A DNA stretch of 26,344 bases. Source: a virus. A program made the translations under genes and the position numbers. The DNA lies in the IMG/VR virus record IMGVR_UViG_3300044858_006686, positions 1 to 26,344 of that record, one strand, 5' to 3'. Of the stretch, positions 118 through 22,756 are shown piece after piece. Numbering within the stretch: the first letter of the stretch is position 1; each line of letters opens with the position of its first letter. Below the pieces are notes generated by a model. It had not been told where the DNA came from. It worked only from the letters and a program-made list of their open reading frames with translations, and ran no database searches.

Positions 118-983
118 GCCACAAAGCCACCAACTGGGCGATCCAGCAGCGCGGGCTCAGCCCCGTGACCAAGCTGGTGCTCTGGCATCTCTGCGACCGG
201 CACAACCCGGACTACGGCTGTTTCCCGTCGCAGGACCAGCTGGCGGCCGACGTGGAAATCTCCCGCGCCTCCCTGAACGTCCACCTCGAAAAGCTTCAGG
301 CGGCCGGTCTGATCCGCCGCGAAAGGCGGGTTGATGAGGCAACCCACCGGCAGAAATCAACCCGCTACATCCTCGGTTTCGAGGACGATTTCCATGCCGG
401 GCCGTGTCCAGAATCTGGACACGGAAACGGGCAAAAGCCGTGTCCAGATTTTGCCAAAAGCCGTGTCCAGAATCTGGACACTAACCTTGTAAGAGAACCA
501 GTAACTACTACCGCGCGTGACGCGGGCGCGAGCGGCGACCTCGAGGCGGCCTGTCTCGAGGCCTGCGGACCGGGATTGAGCGAGGCGGCATGCGCTGCGA
601 TCACCGCCACCCGCTCGGTCATCGAGGGCTGGTTAGCTGAGGGCTACGACCTCGCCGCCGACATCCTGCCCACCCTGGCCGACCGGACCCGGCAAACCCG
701 CGCCAGCCCGATCCGGACCTGGGATTACTTCACTCCGGCGATCGCGCAGCGCCATGCCCGGCGGATCGCCAGGATGGCGACCGGCGAAAGGGCTGGGGAA
801 GTTGGCGCTGGTGGTGCCGCCAGCGCCCCCGGCCCGAACCCTGATCCGCTGATCCGACTGGCCGCCTGGATCAACTCCGGCACCTACATCCCGCCCAGCG
901 CCGTCTCGACCTCGCAACGCTATGCCCTGCTGGCCGCAGGCCTCGTCACCGAGGCCACGTTGCGGGCCCGGCAAATCTACTGA
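114..983 (+). CDS. helix-turn-helix protein, probable phage replication initiator
   Basis: The 289-residue protein starts at GTG 114, overlapping the preceding stop by 4 bases. Residues ~1-95 form a winged helix-turn-helix of the HTH_36 type seen in phage and plasmid replication proteins: KLVLWHLCDRHN, then CFPSQDQLAADVEISRASLN (recognition region) and LIRRERR before the wing. A low-complexity linker (~100-140) is followed by a helical C-terminal domain with SPIRTWDYFTPAIA, a segment common in Rhodobacterales phage homologues. The linker DNA carries three copies of a palindromic repeat (402-481), the arrangement of lambda gene O, where the initiator's own gene contains the origin. A role in replication is inferred from the fold, the position and these repeats; a transcription regulator is the alternative. 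Confidence 0.75.
   Translation: MSHKATNWAIQQRGLSPVTKLVLWHLCDRHNPDYGCFPSQDQLAADVEISRASLNVHLEKLQAAGLIRRERRVDEATHRQKSTRYILGFEDDFHAGPCPESGHGNGQKPCPDFAKSRVQNLDTNLVREPVTTTARDAGASGDLEAACLEACGPGLSEAACAAITATRSVIEGWLAEGYDLAADILPTLADRTRQTRASPIRTWDYFTPAIAQRHARRIARMATGERAGEVGAGGAASAPGPNPDPLIRLAAWINSGTYIPPSAVSTSQRYALLAAGLVTEATLRARQIY
402..424. repeat. palindromic iteron-like repeat, copy 1
   Basis: An 11-bp arm CCGTGTCCAGA (402-412), a single central A (413) and the exact reverse-complement arm (414-424) form a perfect inverted repeat. It lies inside the linker coding region of the helix-turn-helix gene. A dyad of this size is a plausible dimer binding site. Confidence 0.8.
438..449 (+). repeat. iteron-like half-site, copy 2
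   Basis: CCGTGTCCAGAT repeats the left arm of copy 1, without the right arm. The 17-base string CAAAAGCCGTGTCCAGA (432-448) recurs exactly at 455-471, so copies 2 and 3 also form a direct repeat with a 23-base offset. Confidence 0.75.
461..481. repeat. palindromic iteron-like repeat, copy 3
   Basis: The left arm CCGTGTCCAGA (461-471), central A (472) and right arm TCTGGACAC (473-481) give 9 paired bases. It is offset 23 bases from copy 2, so it is read in a different codon phase: the encoded peptides differ (GPCPESGH versus SRVQNLDT) while the DNA is the same. That points to selection on DNA rather than protein. A stretch with only 11 G/C in 30 follows at 481-510, unusual in this GC-rich window and like an unwinding element. 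Confidence 0.8.
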
Positions 984-1891: not shown

Positions 1892-2692
1892 ATGCAGATC
1901 GAGATGATGCCGACCGACCGGCTGGTGCCCTACATCCGCAATGCCCGGACCCATTCCGCCGATCAGGTGGCCCAGATCGCGGCCTCGATTGCTGAGTTCG
2001 GTTTCACCAACCCGATCCTGATCGGCGAAGACGAGGTAATCATCGCCGGGCATGGCCGGCTGCAGGCGGCGCGGTCGCTGGGTCTGACCGAGGTGCCGGT
2101 CATCGTGCTGGACCACCTGTCCGATGCGCAGCGCCGGGCGCTGGTGATTGCGGACAACCGGATCGCCGAACATGCGGGCTGGGACGAGAAGCTTCTGGCG
2201 GCGGAGATCGCCGCCCTGCGCGACGAGGCCTTCGATCTGGATGTGATCGGTTTCTCGGAGGACGAGCTTCACGATCTGCTCGACGGCCTGGACGATCCTG
2301 CCGCCGACGGGATGGGCTTCGGGGGCGGCACGCAGGCGGGTGGTGCCGATCAGGACAAGGCACCGGCACCGGCCGTCGCGCCTTCCGCCACCCTGGCGGA
2401 ACGTTTCGGCATTCCACCCTTCTCGATCCTCGATGCCCGCAAGGGCTGGTGGCAGGATCGCAAGCGGGCGTGGATCGACCTCGGCATCCGGTCGGAACTC
2501 GGCCGCGGCGAGGGCGACCGGGCCTGCCCCGGCGGCAGCCCGATGCCGGGCAACGGGTCGCGCAAGGACTACAAGCCCGGCGCGGCGAAGGCCTTCCATG
2601 ATGGCGCGGTCCTCGGGAAGGGTGGTCTGTCGGATCAGGTCGCAGCGGCGGCAACAGCGCGCAAAGCGGGAAAGGCGGTGGCCCATGGCTAA
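1892..2692 (+). CDS. ParB N-terminal (ParB/Srx-fold) domain protein
   Basis: ATG 1892 is preferred over an earlier in-frame ATG (1787) because GGAGG at 1878-1882 lies 9 bases upstream and the family resemblance begins here (MQIEMMPTDRLVPYIRNART). Residues ~1-90 show the ParB-like fold: NARTHS, GFTNPILIG, and IIAGHGRLQAAR in the position of the nucleotide-binding GxRR motif of ParB. The C-terminal part has ILDARKGWWQDRKRAW and SELGRGEGD, which in related phages I recall linking a ParB domain to a methyltransferase in one polypeptide. Here the frame stops at 2692, 8 bases into the methyltransferase gene. A role in phage DNA modification, helping target the methyltransferase, is more likely than partition because no ParA is visible. 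Confidence 0.8.
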   Translation: MQIEMMPTDRLVPYIRNARTHSADQVAQIAASIAEFGFTNPILIGEDEVIIAGHGRLQAARSLGLTEVPVIVLDHLSDAQRRALVIADNRIAEHAGWDEKLLAAEIAALRDEAFDLDVIGFSEDELHDLLDGLDDPAADGMGFGGGTQAGGADQDKAPAPAVAPSATLAERFGIPPFSILDARKGWWQDRKRAWIDLGIRSELGRGEGDRACPGGSPMPGNGSRKDYKPGAAKAFHDGAVLGKGGLSDQVAAAATARKAGKAVAHG

Positions 2693-3632
2693 GGGGTTGG
2701 CGCGGACCTTCGGGCAGGATTTGATGCGCGGTGAGCATGAGGTCGGCGGCGACAAGACCAACGGCGGCGTGCTGATGCCGTCACACACCTCGGGCGACCC
2801 CGGCTTCTACGCCAAGAAACGGGCGAAGGAGGCCGAACTCGGTCGCGAGCTTTCGACCGAGGAATTCCTCACCGATCACTACCAGCCCTCCGAGGCCCCG
2901 ACCGCCTCGGGCACGTCGATTTTCGATCCGGTTCTCTGCGAGATCGCTTATCGCTGGTTCTGCCCGCCGGGCGGGACGGTGCTGGACCCCTTTGCTGGCG
3001 GATCGGTACGCGGCGTGGTGGCCTCACGCCTCGGTCTGTCATACGTCGGCGTCGAACTTCGCGGAGAACAGGTTGCCGCGAACGAGGCGCAAGCCGCGCT
3101 GGGCGCAGGCCCGGCCCCGCGCTGGATCACCGGCGACAGCCGCGACATTGCCAGGCTGGCCAAGGGCGTCGACGCCGACCTGATCTTCTCCTGCCCGCCC
3201 TATTGGAACCTCGAGGTTTACTCCGACGATCCGGCGGACCTCTCGACCCTCGGCAAAGACGACTTCTTCGCCGCCTACGCCGCCATCATCCGCGACACCG
3301 TCGCCCGGCTGCGCGAGGATCGCTTCGCCGTCTGGGTGATCGGCGACGTGCGCGACGCGGACGGGTTCTTCGTCAACCTGCCAGGCCGGACGGTCGAGGC
3401 CTTCGAGGCAGCAGGAGCGCGGTTCTACAACGACGCGATCCTCGTCACCGCCGTGGGATCGCTGCCGATCCGTGTCGGCCGACAGTTCACCGCCTCGCGC
3501 AAGCTGGGCCGGACACATCAGAACGTGCTGGTGTTTTGCAAGGGCGATCCCAAACGGGCGACCGAGGCCTGCGGGCAGGTCGAGTTTGGCGAGATCGAAG
3601 AGGAAGCTGGCGAAGAGGAGGACGCGGAATGA
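2685..3632 (+). CDS. site-specific DNA methyltransferase (N4/N6 amino-methyltransferase fold)
   Basis: The 315-residue protein starts at ATG 2685, overlapping the ParB-like gene by 8 bases. The SAM-binding motif I is VLDPFAGGSVRG (~99-110), and the catalytic motif IV is FSCPPYWNLEVYS (~168-180), a CPPY variant of the D/N/S-PP-Y/F motif. The order motif I then motif IV and the closing GRTHQNVLVFCKG segment fit amino-methyltransferases, which methylate adenine N6 or cytosine N4. The acidic C-terminus (EIEEEAGEEEDAE) is not part of the fold. No partner nuclease is visible, so this is an orphan modification enzyme, perhaps protecting phage DNA from host restriction. The upstream join may be an ancient frame break of a fused ParB-methyltransferase gene. 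Confidence 0.85.
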   Translation: MAKGLARTFGQDLMRGEHEVGGDKTNGGVLMPSHTSGDPGFYAKKRAKEAELGRELSTEEFLTDHYQPSEAPTASGTSIFDPVLCEIAYRWFCPPGGTVLDPFAGGSVRGVVASRLGLSYVGVELRGEQVAANEAQAALGAGPAPRWITGDSRDIARLAKGVDADLIFSCPPYWNLEVYSDDPADLSTLGKDDFFAAYAAIIRDTVARLREDRFAVWVIGDVRDADGFFVNLPGRTVEAFEAAGARFYNDAILVTAVGSLPIRVGRQFTASRKLGRTHQNVLVFCKGDPKRATEACGQVEFGEIEEEAGEEEDAE

Positions 3633-18793: not shown

Positions 18794-21700
18794 ATGGCCA
18801 CCCTCGTTCTCGGCGCCGTCGGCACCGCGCTGGGCGCGGGCTTCGGCGGGACAATTCTCGGGCTTTCTGGCGCCGCCCTTGGCGGGCTGATCGGCTCATC
18901 CATCGGCTCGGTGGTGGACAGCTGGCTGATCTCGTCGCTGGCGCCAGGCCAGCGGGTCGAGGGCGCGCGCCTCGATGCCCTGAGGATCACCTCGGCCACC
19001 GAAGGGGCCGTGATCCCGCGACTCTTCGGGCGGTTGCGGATCGGCGGCAACATCATCTGGGCGACCGATTTCCGCGAGGAGATCGTCACGACCCGCTCGG
19101 GCGGCGGCAAGGGGGCACGGAAACCCCGGGTTACCACGACGGAATACCTCTATTCGGCCTCCTTCGCGGTAGCGCTCTGCGAGGGCCCGATCACCGGCAT
19201 CGGCCGTATCTGGGCCGACGGCGAGATCATGGACCTCTCCGGCGTGGTCTGGCGTTGGCATCCGGGGAGCGAGACCCAAGGTGCCGATCCCTACATCACC
19301 GCCCGCTCCGGCGCTTCTGTTACCCCGGCCTATCGCGGCACCGCCTATGTGGTCTTCGAGGAACTGGCACTCGAGCGCTTCGGCAACAGGCTGCCGCAGT
19401 TGTCCTTCGAGGTTTTCCGCCCCCTCGCCGATCCCGACACTGCCGAAGGGGCGATCCGGGCGGTCACGCTGATCCCGGCCTCGGGCGAGGCGGCCTATGC
19501 CACCAGCCTCATCCGCCGGACAGGATCAGGGGCGTCCGGGGCCGAGAACTGCAATGCGCTGGCCGACGTCGCGGATATCGAGGTCGCCCTCAATCGCCTG
19601 CAGGCGCTGGCCCCGGCGGTGCAAAGCGTCTCGCTGGTGGCGGCATGGTTCGGCAACGATCTGCGTGCGGGAACCTGCACGATCCGGCCCAAGGTAGAGG
19701 TTGCGGTCAAGGCGACCAGCCCCGCCTGGCGGGTCGGCGGTCTCTGGCGGGACTCGTTCGGTGTCGTAAGCCAGATCGACGGCCGTCCGGTCTACGGCGG
19801 CACGCCGTCAGACGCGAGTGTCGTCGAGGCGATCCGCGAGCTGAAGGTACGGGGCAAGCGGGTGACGTTCTACCCCTTCGTGATGATGGATATCCCGCCG
19901 GGGAACAGCCTGCCCGATCCCTACAGCCCGAACGCGGCGACGCCCGAGCAACCCGCCTTCCCCTGGCGGGGGCGGATCACCTGTTCACCGGCGGCGGGGG
20001 TCGCGGGCTCGACGGACAAGACGGCGGCGGCGGGATCGCAGATCACGGCGTTCTTCGGGGCGGCGCTCCGGACGCAGTTCGCCGTCTCGGGCACAACCGT
20101 CACCTTCACCGGCCCCGGATCGGACTGGGGCTTCCGGCGGATGATTCTGCACTATGCCCATCTCTGCGCGGCGGCAGGCGGCGTCGATGCCTTCCTGATC
20201 GGCAGCGAGTTGCGCGGGATCACGCAGACCCGTAGCGCCACTGGCACCTATCCCGGTGTTGCCGCCCTGCGGTCGCTCGCGTCCGACGTCCGCGCGATCC
20301 TCGGGGCGGGCACGAAGATCAGCTATGCAGCCGACTGGTCGGAATACTTCGGTCACCAACCCGCCGACGGGTCGCAGGACGTGTATTTCCACCTCGATCC
20401 GCTCTGGGCCGATGCGAATGTGAACTTCGTCGGCATCGACAACTACCTGCCCCTGTCGGATTGGCGCGACGGCACCGAGCATCTGGACGCCACGATCTGG
20501 CCGGATGTGCACGACCGGGCTTACCTAATGGCGAACGTTGCGGGCGGCGAAGGCTATGACTGGTTCTATGCCTCTGATGCCGAACGCGCTGCACAGGTCC
20601 GCACGCCGATCACCGACGCCGGGATCGGAGCTCCTTGGGTCTTTCGCCCCAAGGATCTGCGATCATGGTGGAGCAACCCGCATTTCGACCGGCCGGGCGG
20701 GGTTGAGAGCGGCACCCCGACGGCATGGGTTCCGCAATCCAAGCCCTTCTGGTTCACGGAGGTGGGCTGCCCCGCGGTCGACCGGGGCAGCAACCAGCCG
20801 AACGTGTTCTTCGATCCAAAGTCCTCGGAAAGCTTCGTGCCCTACTTCTCGCGCGGTTGGCGCGACGACGCGATCCAGCGCGCCTACCTCGAGGCGACAT
20901 GGGCGTTCTGGGGCGGGGCCGCGAACAATCCGACCTCTAGCCTTTACGGCGCGTCCATGGTCACCCTTGCCGAATGCGCCGCCTGGACATGGGACGCCCG
21001 GCCCTATCCCTTCTTCCCCGAACAGACCGGCATCTGGAGCGACGGGCCGAACTGGCGGCTCGGGCACTGGCTGACCGGCAGGCTCGGTGCGGTGTCGCTG
21101 GCGGCTCTCGTGCGCGCCCTTTGCCTTCGCGCGGGTCTGCCTGAGACACGGATCGACGTTTCGGGTCTCTGGGGCGCGGTCGAGGGCTATGTGATCGCGG
21201 GGCTGGAAAGCCCGCGGGCCTCGATCTCGGTTCTGGCGCGGCATTTCGGGTTCGATGCGACCGAAACTGAGGGCCGCGTGCGCTTCGTGATGCGGGGGCG
21301 GGTCCCGGCCCTGACGCTGGTGCCCGACGCGATGGTTGCCGCCGGTGAGGCAGGAGCGGAGCCGTTCGAACTGGTGCGTGGACAGGAATCCGAGATCGCG
21401 CAGGCGCTGAAGTGGACCATCGCGCGCGCCGACGAGGATTACGACGCGGCCATCGTCGAGGCGCGCCGGATCACGGTCGAGTCTTCCCGGATCGGGGCCG
21501 AGAGCTTTGCCATTGCCGTGCCGCCCGAAGAAGCCGAACGCCGCTGCCGCCGGGCGCTGGTCGAGGCCTGGACCGGGCGCGAGTCCCTGAGCTTCCGCTT
21601 GCCGCCCTCGCGGCTGGCGCTCGATCCGACCGATCCGATCCGCCTCGACCATGATGGCAGGCTGGTCGAATACCGCATCACCCGGACGGCAGACGAGACG

Positions 21701-22756
21701 GCCCGGTCGGTGGAAGCCATCCGACAGGATCGCGCAGCGCTCGACCTGCCGCCCGGCGATGCCCGCCCGGCCAGCCTTGCGCGCCCGGTGGTTTTCGGCA
21801 CGCCAGACGTGGTGTTTCTCGATCTGCCGCAGCTGGACGCGGAGGTGCCCGCCCACCGCCCCTGGCTCGCGGCCGAGGCCCGGCCCTGGCCGGGGCAACT
21901 GGCAGTCGTCCGCAGCGCCGGGCTGGACGGTTTCACCCTGCTCACGACGATCGATGCCCGCGCCCGGATGGGCAGGCTCGCGGCGGCGCTGTTTCCGGGG
22001 CCGCTCAGTGTCTTCGACACGGGCAACACGCTGCTGGTAGATATGGACTCCGGCACGCTTGAAGGTATCACCGATCTGGAACTCTTCGGCGGGGCCAACG
22101 CCTTTGCGGTCGAGAGCAGCCCCGGCCGCTGGGAAGTGCTGCAGGCGGCGATCGTCGAACTGGTCGCCGTCGGGCGCTACAGCCTGACCCGCCTCTTGCG
22201 TGGCCAGCGCGGCACCGAAGGCGCAATGGGTGCGCCCACCCCTGTCGGCGCGCGGATCGTGACCCTGGACGCCGCCATTGTGCCGCTGCCGATCGCCGAG
22301 GCCGATCTCTTCCTCGATTGGAACTGGCGGATCGGTCCCGCCGTCCGTGACATCGCCGACGCCACCTATGCCGCAGCAGCCTTCACGCCCGCCGGGCGGG
22401 GCCTTCTGCCCTTCGCCCCAGTGCATGTCGAGCAGCCCTGGCGCACGGGACGTCTGCCCGGCGACCTGACGATCCGCTGGGTTCGGCGAAGCCGCGATCT
22501 CTCCGCAGATGCTTGGGAAATCGGCGAGCAGCCGCTGTCCGAGGCGACCGAAGCATATGAGATCGACATCTACAACGGCAGTACCCTCAAGCGCACCCTG
22601 ACGACCGGCACCCCGTCGGCCCTCTACACCGCCGCCCAGCAGATTGCCGATTTCGGCGCGCCATTGGGCCCGGGCCAGTCCTTCACCGTCCGCATCTTCC
22701 AGATCTCCGCCCGGCTCGGGCGGGGATCTGAGGCAATAACCACCCTCTTCACCTGA
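18794..22756 (+). CDS. GTA TIM-barrel-like host specificity protein (gp15-like, central tail tip)
   Basis: 1320 residues, near the length of RcGTA gp15. A Gly/Ala-rich hydrophobic N-terminus (LGAGFGGTILGLSGAALGGL) is followed by a tail-hub region (GAVIPRLFGRLRIGGNIIWA, STDYLYSASFAVALCEG-like TTEYLYSASFAVALCEG). The TIM-barrel glycosidase-like domain spans ~430-740 (ILHYAHLCAAAGGVDAFLIG; KISYAADWSEYFGH; FVGIDNYLPLSDWRDG; KPFWFTEVGCPAVDRGSNQP), and a gpJ-like region continues to ~1230. The C-terminal ~100 residues are beta-rich (WRTGRLPGDLTIRWVRRSRD; YEIDIYNGST). It is the megatron-type protein that completes the baseplate and contacts the cell surface. Hydrolase activity is unproven. Confidence 0.93.
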   Translation: MATLVLGAVGTALGAGFGGTILGLSGAALGGLIGSSIGSVVDSWLISSLAPGQRVEGARLDALRITSATEGAVIPRLFGRLRIGGNIIWATDFREEIVTTRSGGGKGARKPRVTTTEYLYSASFAVALCEGPITGIGRIWADGEIMDLSGVVWRWHPGSETQGADPYITARSGASVTPAYRGTAYVVFEELALERFGNRLPQLSFEVFRPLADPDTAEGAIRAVTLIPASGEAAYATSLIRRTGSGASGAENCNALADVADIEVALNRLQALAPAVQSVSLVAAWFGNDLRAGTCTIRPKVEVAVKATSPAWRVGGLWRDSFGVVSQIDGRPVYGGTPSDASVVEAIRELKVRGKRVTFYPFVMMDIPPGNSLPDPYSPNAATPEQPAFPWRGRITCSPAAGVAGSTDKTAAAGSQITAFFGAALRTQFAVSGTTVTFTGPGSDWGFRRMILHYAHLCAAAGGVDAFLIGSELRGITQTRSATGTYPGVAALRSLASDVRAILGAGTKISYAADWSEYFGHQPADGSQDVYFHLDPLWADANVNFVGIDNYLPLSDWRDGTEHLDATIWPDVHDRAYLMANVAGGEGYDWFYASDAERAAQVRTPITDAGIGAPWVFRPKDLRSWWSNPHFDRPGGVESGTPTAWVPQSKPFWFTEVGCPAVDRGSNQPNVFFDPKSSESFVPYFSRGWRDDAIQRAYLEATWAFWGGAANNPTSSLYGASMVTLAECAAWTWDARPYPFFPEQTGIWSDGPNWRLGHWLTGRLGAVSLAALVRALCLRAGLPETRIDVSGLWGAVEGYVIAGLESPRASISVLARHFGFDATETEGRVRFVMRGRVPALTLVPDAMVAAGEAGAEPFELVRGQESEIAQALKWTIARADEDYDAAIVEARRITVESSRIGAESFAIAVPPEEAERRCRRALVEAWTGRESLSFRLPPSRLALDPTDPIRLDHDGRLVEYRITRTADETARSVEAIRQDRAALDLPPGDARPASLARPVVFGTPDVVFLDLPQLDAEVPAHRPWLAAEARPWPGQLAVVRSAGLDGFTLLTTIDARARMGRLAAALFPGPLSVFDTGNTLLVDMDSGTLEGITDLELFGGANAFAVESSPGRWEVLQAAIVELVAVGRYSLTRLLRGQRGTEGAMGAPTPVGARIVTLDAAIVPLPIAEADLFLDWNWRIGPAVRDIADATYAAAAFTPAGRGLLPFAPVHVEQPWRTGRLPGDLTIRWVRRSRDLSADAWEIGEQPLSEATEAYEIDIYNGSTLKRTLTTGTPSALYTAAQQIADFGAPLGPGQSFTVRIFQISARLGRGSEAITTLFT

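Follow-up and report, generated by a model that had tools for sequence, protein, structure and literature searches.

Repeats lying inside a replication-type gene raise the question of whether a phage keeps its replication origin within the gene for its own initiator. The window studied here (the whole 26,344-base stretch, from IMG/VR virus record IMGVR_UViG_3300044858_006686) had been proposed to hold such an origin, laid out on the plan of lambda gene O. Here, we document the anatomy of these repeats, their multi-frame conservation at the DNA level, the synonymous constraint on the tract beside them, and their covariation with the protein, and we regard it as very probable that positions 402-512 form a theta-type phage replication origin inside its own initiator gene, for which we infer binding, wrapping, melting, helicase recruitment, and origin use.

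The initiator gene and its family

The gene (114-983, + strand) encodes an O-like replication initiator of 289 aa and starts with GTG at 114, where nearly all homologues have ATG; the reading frame upstream of 114 terminates inside an overlapping GTGA. Its assignment as a replication-type gene, originally made from the letters and their translations, is borne out by a profile match of residues 1-133 to PHROG 345, “replication initiation O-like” (E 2.1e-23), with further matches to PHROG 270 and PHROG 391 (both “replication initiation”), while the N-terminal part matches Pfam HTH_36 (E 1e-13). Homologues in bacterial genomes belong mainly to Rhodobacteraceae and related families, many more are held by viral contigs, and annotated relatives include genes of Rhodobacter capsulatus phages and Labrenzia phages. 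Single bacterial genomes can carry two or three loci of this initiator family (L083 and L085; L126, L137, and L143; L086 and L133), with the same iteron type at each.

By Pfam search, the gene downstream of the initiator in the window is DUF6362, and no lambda P gene adjoins the initiator; a P-like neighbour occurs only in a distant relative, Aggregatibacter phage S1249, where the homologue is immediately followed by a “possible bacteriophage replication protein P” by annotation. Elsewhere in the window (1892-3632), the genes for a ParB-like protein and an N6/N4 DNA methylase share a 2-base overlap, unlike PHROG 498, in which the two parts are joined in one protein. A large gene (18794-22756, 1320 aa) has the size and place of the GTA TIM-barrel tail gene of RcOceanus (L315:15310-19269), and the structural region is that of an ordinary siphovirus in appearance.

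The AlphaFold2 model divides the protein into an N-terminal winged-helix DNA-binding domain predicted with high confidence (residues 1-93, positions 114-392; helices 3-11, 17-28, 40-47, and 51-63 plus wing strands), a linker predicted to be disordered (residues 98-139, 405-530, pLDDT <50), and a C-terminal helical domain (534-980, with helices from residue 141), all encoded on the + strand. DSSP on this model places the predicted recognition helix at residues 51-63 (264-302, + strand), which includes the two putative specificity codons, Arg51 (264-266) and Val56 (279-281). The predicted disordered linker coincides with the segment encoded by the iterons and the low-GC tract that follows them. 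MarR/SlyA and DnaD N-terminal domains came up as fold neighbours, but no match had an E value under 1e-3, and among solved structures a single-sequence search gave no relevant match and a profile search returned only MarR/SlyA-like, FadR-like, and DnaD-type domains. The C-terminal domain, for which the family search gave no match, is presumed to bring in either the helicase or a helicase loader.

Iterons and low-GC tract in the linker

Three copies of CCGTGTCCAGA lie on the + strand at 402, 438, and 461, exactly where they had been placed, and the description of copies 1 and 3 as near-perfect dyads proved an understatement, as their cores are perfect 9+1+9 palindromes (404-422 and 463-481), the only two in the 26,344 bases. 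Iteron 1 (402-424, 80 bp upstream of the tract) is a full dyad, CCGTGTCCAGAATCTGGACACGG, and shares 22 identical bases with iteron 3 (401-422 versus 460-481). Iteron 2 (432-448, + strand) is a half-site, not a dyad; its half-site starts at 438 (-44 from the tract) within the 17-base direct repeat that had been noticed between copies 2 and 3, which is exact (CAAAAGCCGTGTCCAGA at 432 and 455). Iteron 3 (455-481, + strand, site start 461, -21) combines the second copy of this repeat with the terminal full dyad, and the offset between copies 2 and 3 is 23 bases, as originally given.

These repeats are not due to chance. The pattern GTGTCCNGANTCNGGACAC with up to 3 mismatches occurs 3 times in the window where 0.12 matches are expected, a number reached in 0/100 shuffles, and its only exact matches are the two in the linker. 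Among 20,000 synonymous recodings of the linker peptide, none contained two such palindromes and only 2 contained the 11-mer three times; because recoding almost never recreates the repeats, they are not forced by the protein sequence.

We gathered 215 distinct homologous genes, and a common anchor and motif class could be assigned in 172. The expectation that homologues keep the repeats as DNA while codons vary held in register and in all three frames across about 200 relatives. In the 172 genes, plus-strand half-sites mostly number 3-5 per gene, are commonest at 21, 44, and 67 bp before the tract, and are separated by exactly 23 bp in 304 spacings, so that successive copies fall in different reading frames. 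The frame counts are 410/146/171, with all three frames used in 142/172 genes, and the kept DNA is read as differing peptides in different frames (PCPESGHG, SRVQNLDT, and AVSGF-like), while copies in the same frame encode similar ones (PCPESGHG). Their distances from the tract are constant from locus to locus, and half-site density is 24.0/kb in the linker versus 0.073/kb outside it, with no enrichment elsewhere in these loci, promoters included. Rhizobium-type relatives carry unrelated AACCGGAC sites, yet these too advance in 23-bp steps through successive frames before the tract, with a distal palindrome in most.

The low-GC stretch that the original prediction had placed at 481-510 does hold 11 G/C in 30 bases. 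We delimit the putative unwinding element as the 31-bp tract TAACCTTGTAAGAGAACCAGTAACTACTACC (482-512, + strand), which is conserved directly after the last iteron and is written in rare AT-ending codons. In nearly all anchored homologues, TAACCyTGTAAGrGAACC... comes straight after the last dyad. Its Val codon is GTA in 352/352 cases versus 2.7% elsewhere in the same genes, its Arg codons are AGA/AGG in 91% versus 6.5%, and its Ser codon is AGT in 93% versus 4%. Among relatives, GC3 at the tract centre is 0.07, the GC of the 40-bp tract is 0.42 versus 0.64 for the whole gene, and 156/172 genes reach their lowest-GC window there. Two relatives (L301 and L303) have the same kind of tract in another frame, encoding ETLTSNRTSKGTGN instead of TNLVREPV; together with L326, L336, and L348, their AACCnGTAA-type tracts are read as TSNRTSN-like peptides where most relatives have VREPV, and the tract DNA thus outlives its reading frame. 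The rare codons, low GC3, and frame switch therefore indicate selection on the DNA, which is consistent with an unwinding element.

In many relatives, the tract is made of 12-bp AACCnGTAA-like units. As a general origin marker, this 12-bp pattern was rejected, since a scan of viral contigs matched many unrelated genes, often opposite long ORFs, and the pattern alone is thus not diagnostic. In RK2 and F, the Rep proteins attach to a single strand of an unwinding element made of repeats (PMC4081077), and by analogy the 12-bp repeats may serve for single-strand binding of this kind.

Array order and protein-iteron covariation

From linker DNA, we set three iteron classes, with A having GTGTCC, B GTGTCTC, and C [AT]CTCC. 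Class A genes have a full dyad at -21 (130/130) and half-sites at -44 (127/127) and -67 (110/110); farther out, 147/149 of the sites at -104 and -197 are full, and genes with a -80 site have it full in 14/19. The half-site copies all share one orientation and form no hairpin, and classes B and C, judged by dyad pairing, follow the same order. The result is a stereotyped array of a distal dyad, half-sites at -67 and -44, and a terminal dyad at -21, followed by the tract, of which the window has a short form (full -80, half -44, full -21).

The class of the iterons varies with two residues of the predicted recognition helix: Arg51 with a residue other than Arg at 56 in class A (155/155 genes), Arg51 with Arg56 in class B (28/28), and no Arg51 in class C (32/32). 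Positions 51 and 56 were picked on a first set of 186 genes after the classes had been seen, and all 186/186 classified genes there obey the rule; a further 29/29 classifiable genes, from two additional scans and one pattern search outside that set, were also correct, so that residues 51 and 56 predict the class in 215/215 genes. On trees built without columns 51 and 56, the best tree has 9 class changes with 64 rows and 13 with 80 rows; on well-supported branches every independent pair agrees, but there are only one or two pairs per trait. Because well-supported branches force so few changes, the association, although without exception, is phylogenetically clustered and does not amount to 215 independent observations. 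Two genes that fall outside the classes (L559 and L513) also have Arg56, but judging by their linker peptides (AVSQ) their sites seem not to be GTGTCTC; this residue may therefore tolerate different bases at that position.

The covariation links the protein to these sites and is what direct reading of the iterons by the recognition helix would produce. Arginine-guanine contacts are known in DNA recognition, and from these we infer that Arg51 most naturally pairs with the guanine that class C has lost. A broader proposal, which we hold only tentatively and with more doubt than conviction, is that these loci form a distinct class of phage origin: a directional array of a distal dyad, one or two same-facing half-sites at 23-bp steps, and a terminal dyad would be followed by 12-bp repeats of the AACCnGTAA type, which would be read for their sequence besides being melted. 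Iteron sequence and residues 51 and 56 would change together, with Arg51 contacting the G of GTG and Arg56 accompanying the C-to-T change, under an unaltered geometry.

Known origins and rival readings

In ori-lambda, the initiator gene carries iterons mid-gene and then an AT-rich tract (PMC7466680, PMC5043065), and the proposed likeness to gene O stands as far as the winged helix, the linker iterons, and the AT-rich element are concerned, all of which are present here. Lambda's four iterons, 20, 24, and 23 bp apart in frames 0, 2, 2, and 1 and followed next by the AT tract, match the locus in having mid-gene inverted-repeat sites of about 19 bp at 20-24 bp steps in mixed frames, with the tract directly after the last iteron. 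The likeness fails on two counts. Lambda's iterons are all described as inverted repeats (PMC5043065), whereas two of the three in the window are perfect 19-bp dyads and the third is a half-site, in a family with GTGTCC-type sites and a fixed order of full dyads and half-sites. The protein is also HTH_36 and, in a Pfam search up to E 1, has no match to Phage_rep_O (PF04492), which lambda O matches at E 6e-36. The relatives' tract is far less AT-rich (40-bp GC 0.42 versus 0.225 in lambda), and the window lacks a P gene beside the initiator. A candidate direct homology with lambda O was dropped, as profile comparison found nothing, and the link rests on PHROG 345, which lambda O also matches (E 5e-17). 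Because the Pfam match fails and no P gene is adjacent, our claim is of lambda-O-like working within a wider O-like set, not of Phage_rep_O membership, and the architecture supports a candidate lambda-O-type in-gene phage origin in an HTH_36 initiator outside that family. Class B iterons (L096, L140, and L157, terminal CCGTGTCTCAAAACGAGACAC; L314:535-552) have an 11-base core, CTCAAAACGAG, in common with lambda iteron 1, ATCCCTCAAAACGAGGGA, which could reflect convergence on a palindrome or common descent.

Other systems share parts of this plan. The Rhizobium etli p42d repABC origin lies inside repC, in or near a low-GC coding region where silent changes abolish replication (PMC3155836), and is likewise in-gene and alphaproteobacterial, but it is reported to be without iterons or DnaA boxes (PMC3155836), whereas iterons are the main feature here; the RP-C (RepC) domain reaches only E 0.04 in the window protein, below the curated Pfam cut-off. 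Initiators of RepA_N plasmids and satellites have a DNA-binding N-terminus with a DnaD-like relation and semi-palindromic iterons (PMC7145576), and the window protein's domain also shows DnaD likeness, but they belong to another Pfam family, and the repeats of the V. cholerae PLE are outside coding sequence (PMC7145576). Gene 53 of RcOceanus, an R. capsulatus phage, and Rhizobium phage PPF1 represent the same gene family, with in-gene repeats and tract, but are recorded only as an HTH protein or a regulator. The main text of the R. capsulatus phage genome paper has neither “iteron” nor “origin of replication” (PMC8601537), and the open-access literature that was searched gave no earlier description of these in-gene iterons.

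Among other readings, the sites could be an in-gene operator through which the HTH protein blocks or tunes its own transcription (roadblock autorepression) with no role in replication. The HTH_36 domain is similar to MarR/SlyA regulators both by sequence and by fold, several records name the protein a transcriptional regulator, and the covariation supports at most binding, not replication; yet the sites are confined to mid-gene without enrichment at promoters, an operator has no need for a fixed, synonymously constrained low-GC tract after the array, and PHROG groups the protein with replication initiators, which makes this reading unlikely. We give still less credence, and very little, to palindromes acting as mRNA hairpins in attenuation or translation control: the full copies are perfect 9-bp inverted repeats, but many conserved copies are hairpin-less half-sites in one orientation (full in 0/127 at -44 and 0/110 at -67), and covariation with recognition-helix residues is not expected of an RNA hairpin. 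That the repeats are kept for their peptide, or are a selfish inserted palindromic element, is the least probable and is already contradicted by the frame data; similar peptides from same-frame copies would favour it, but copies occur in all three frames with unrelated peptides, the linker is predicted to be disordered, positions relative to the tract are fixed, and synonymous recoding does not recreate the repeats.

For the in-gene replication origin that we favour, the winged helix (residues 1-93) would bind the iterons through its recognition helix, with a dimer on each full palindrome (402 and 461) and a monomer or asymmetric dimer on the half-site at 438. Since 23 bp, or roughly two helical turns, separate the tract-proximal sites, the DNA may be wrapped or bent into an O-some-like complex beside 482-512, which would open under negative supercoiling, and the C-terminal domain would then bring in the replicative helicase. 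Cumulative GC skew in the complete genome of the relative RcOceanus showed no turn at the initiator gene.

This reading predicts a base-precise origin for a large set of alphaproteobacterial prophages annotated only with an HTH protein, and it suggests a natural specificity code between initiator and iterons, obtained from sequence alone. The fixed order of half-sites raises the question of how O-like initiators load directionally, and same-type iterons at several loci in one genome raise that of cross-talk between origins. Such compact origins could also serve as small laboratory replicons in Rhodobacteraceae.
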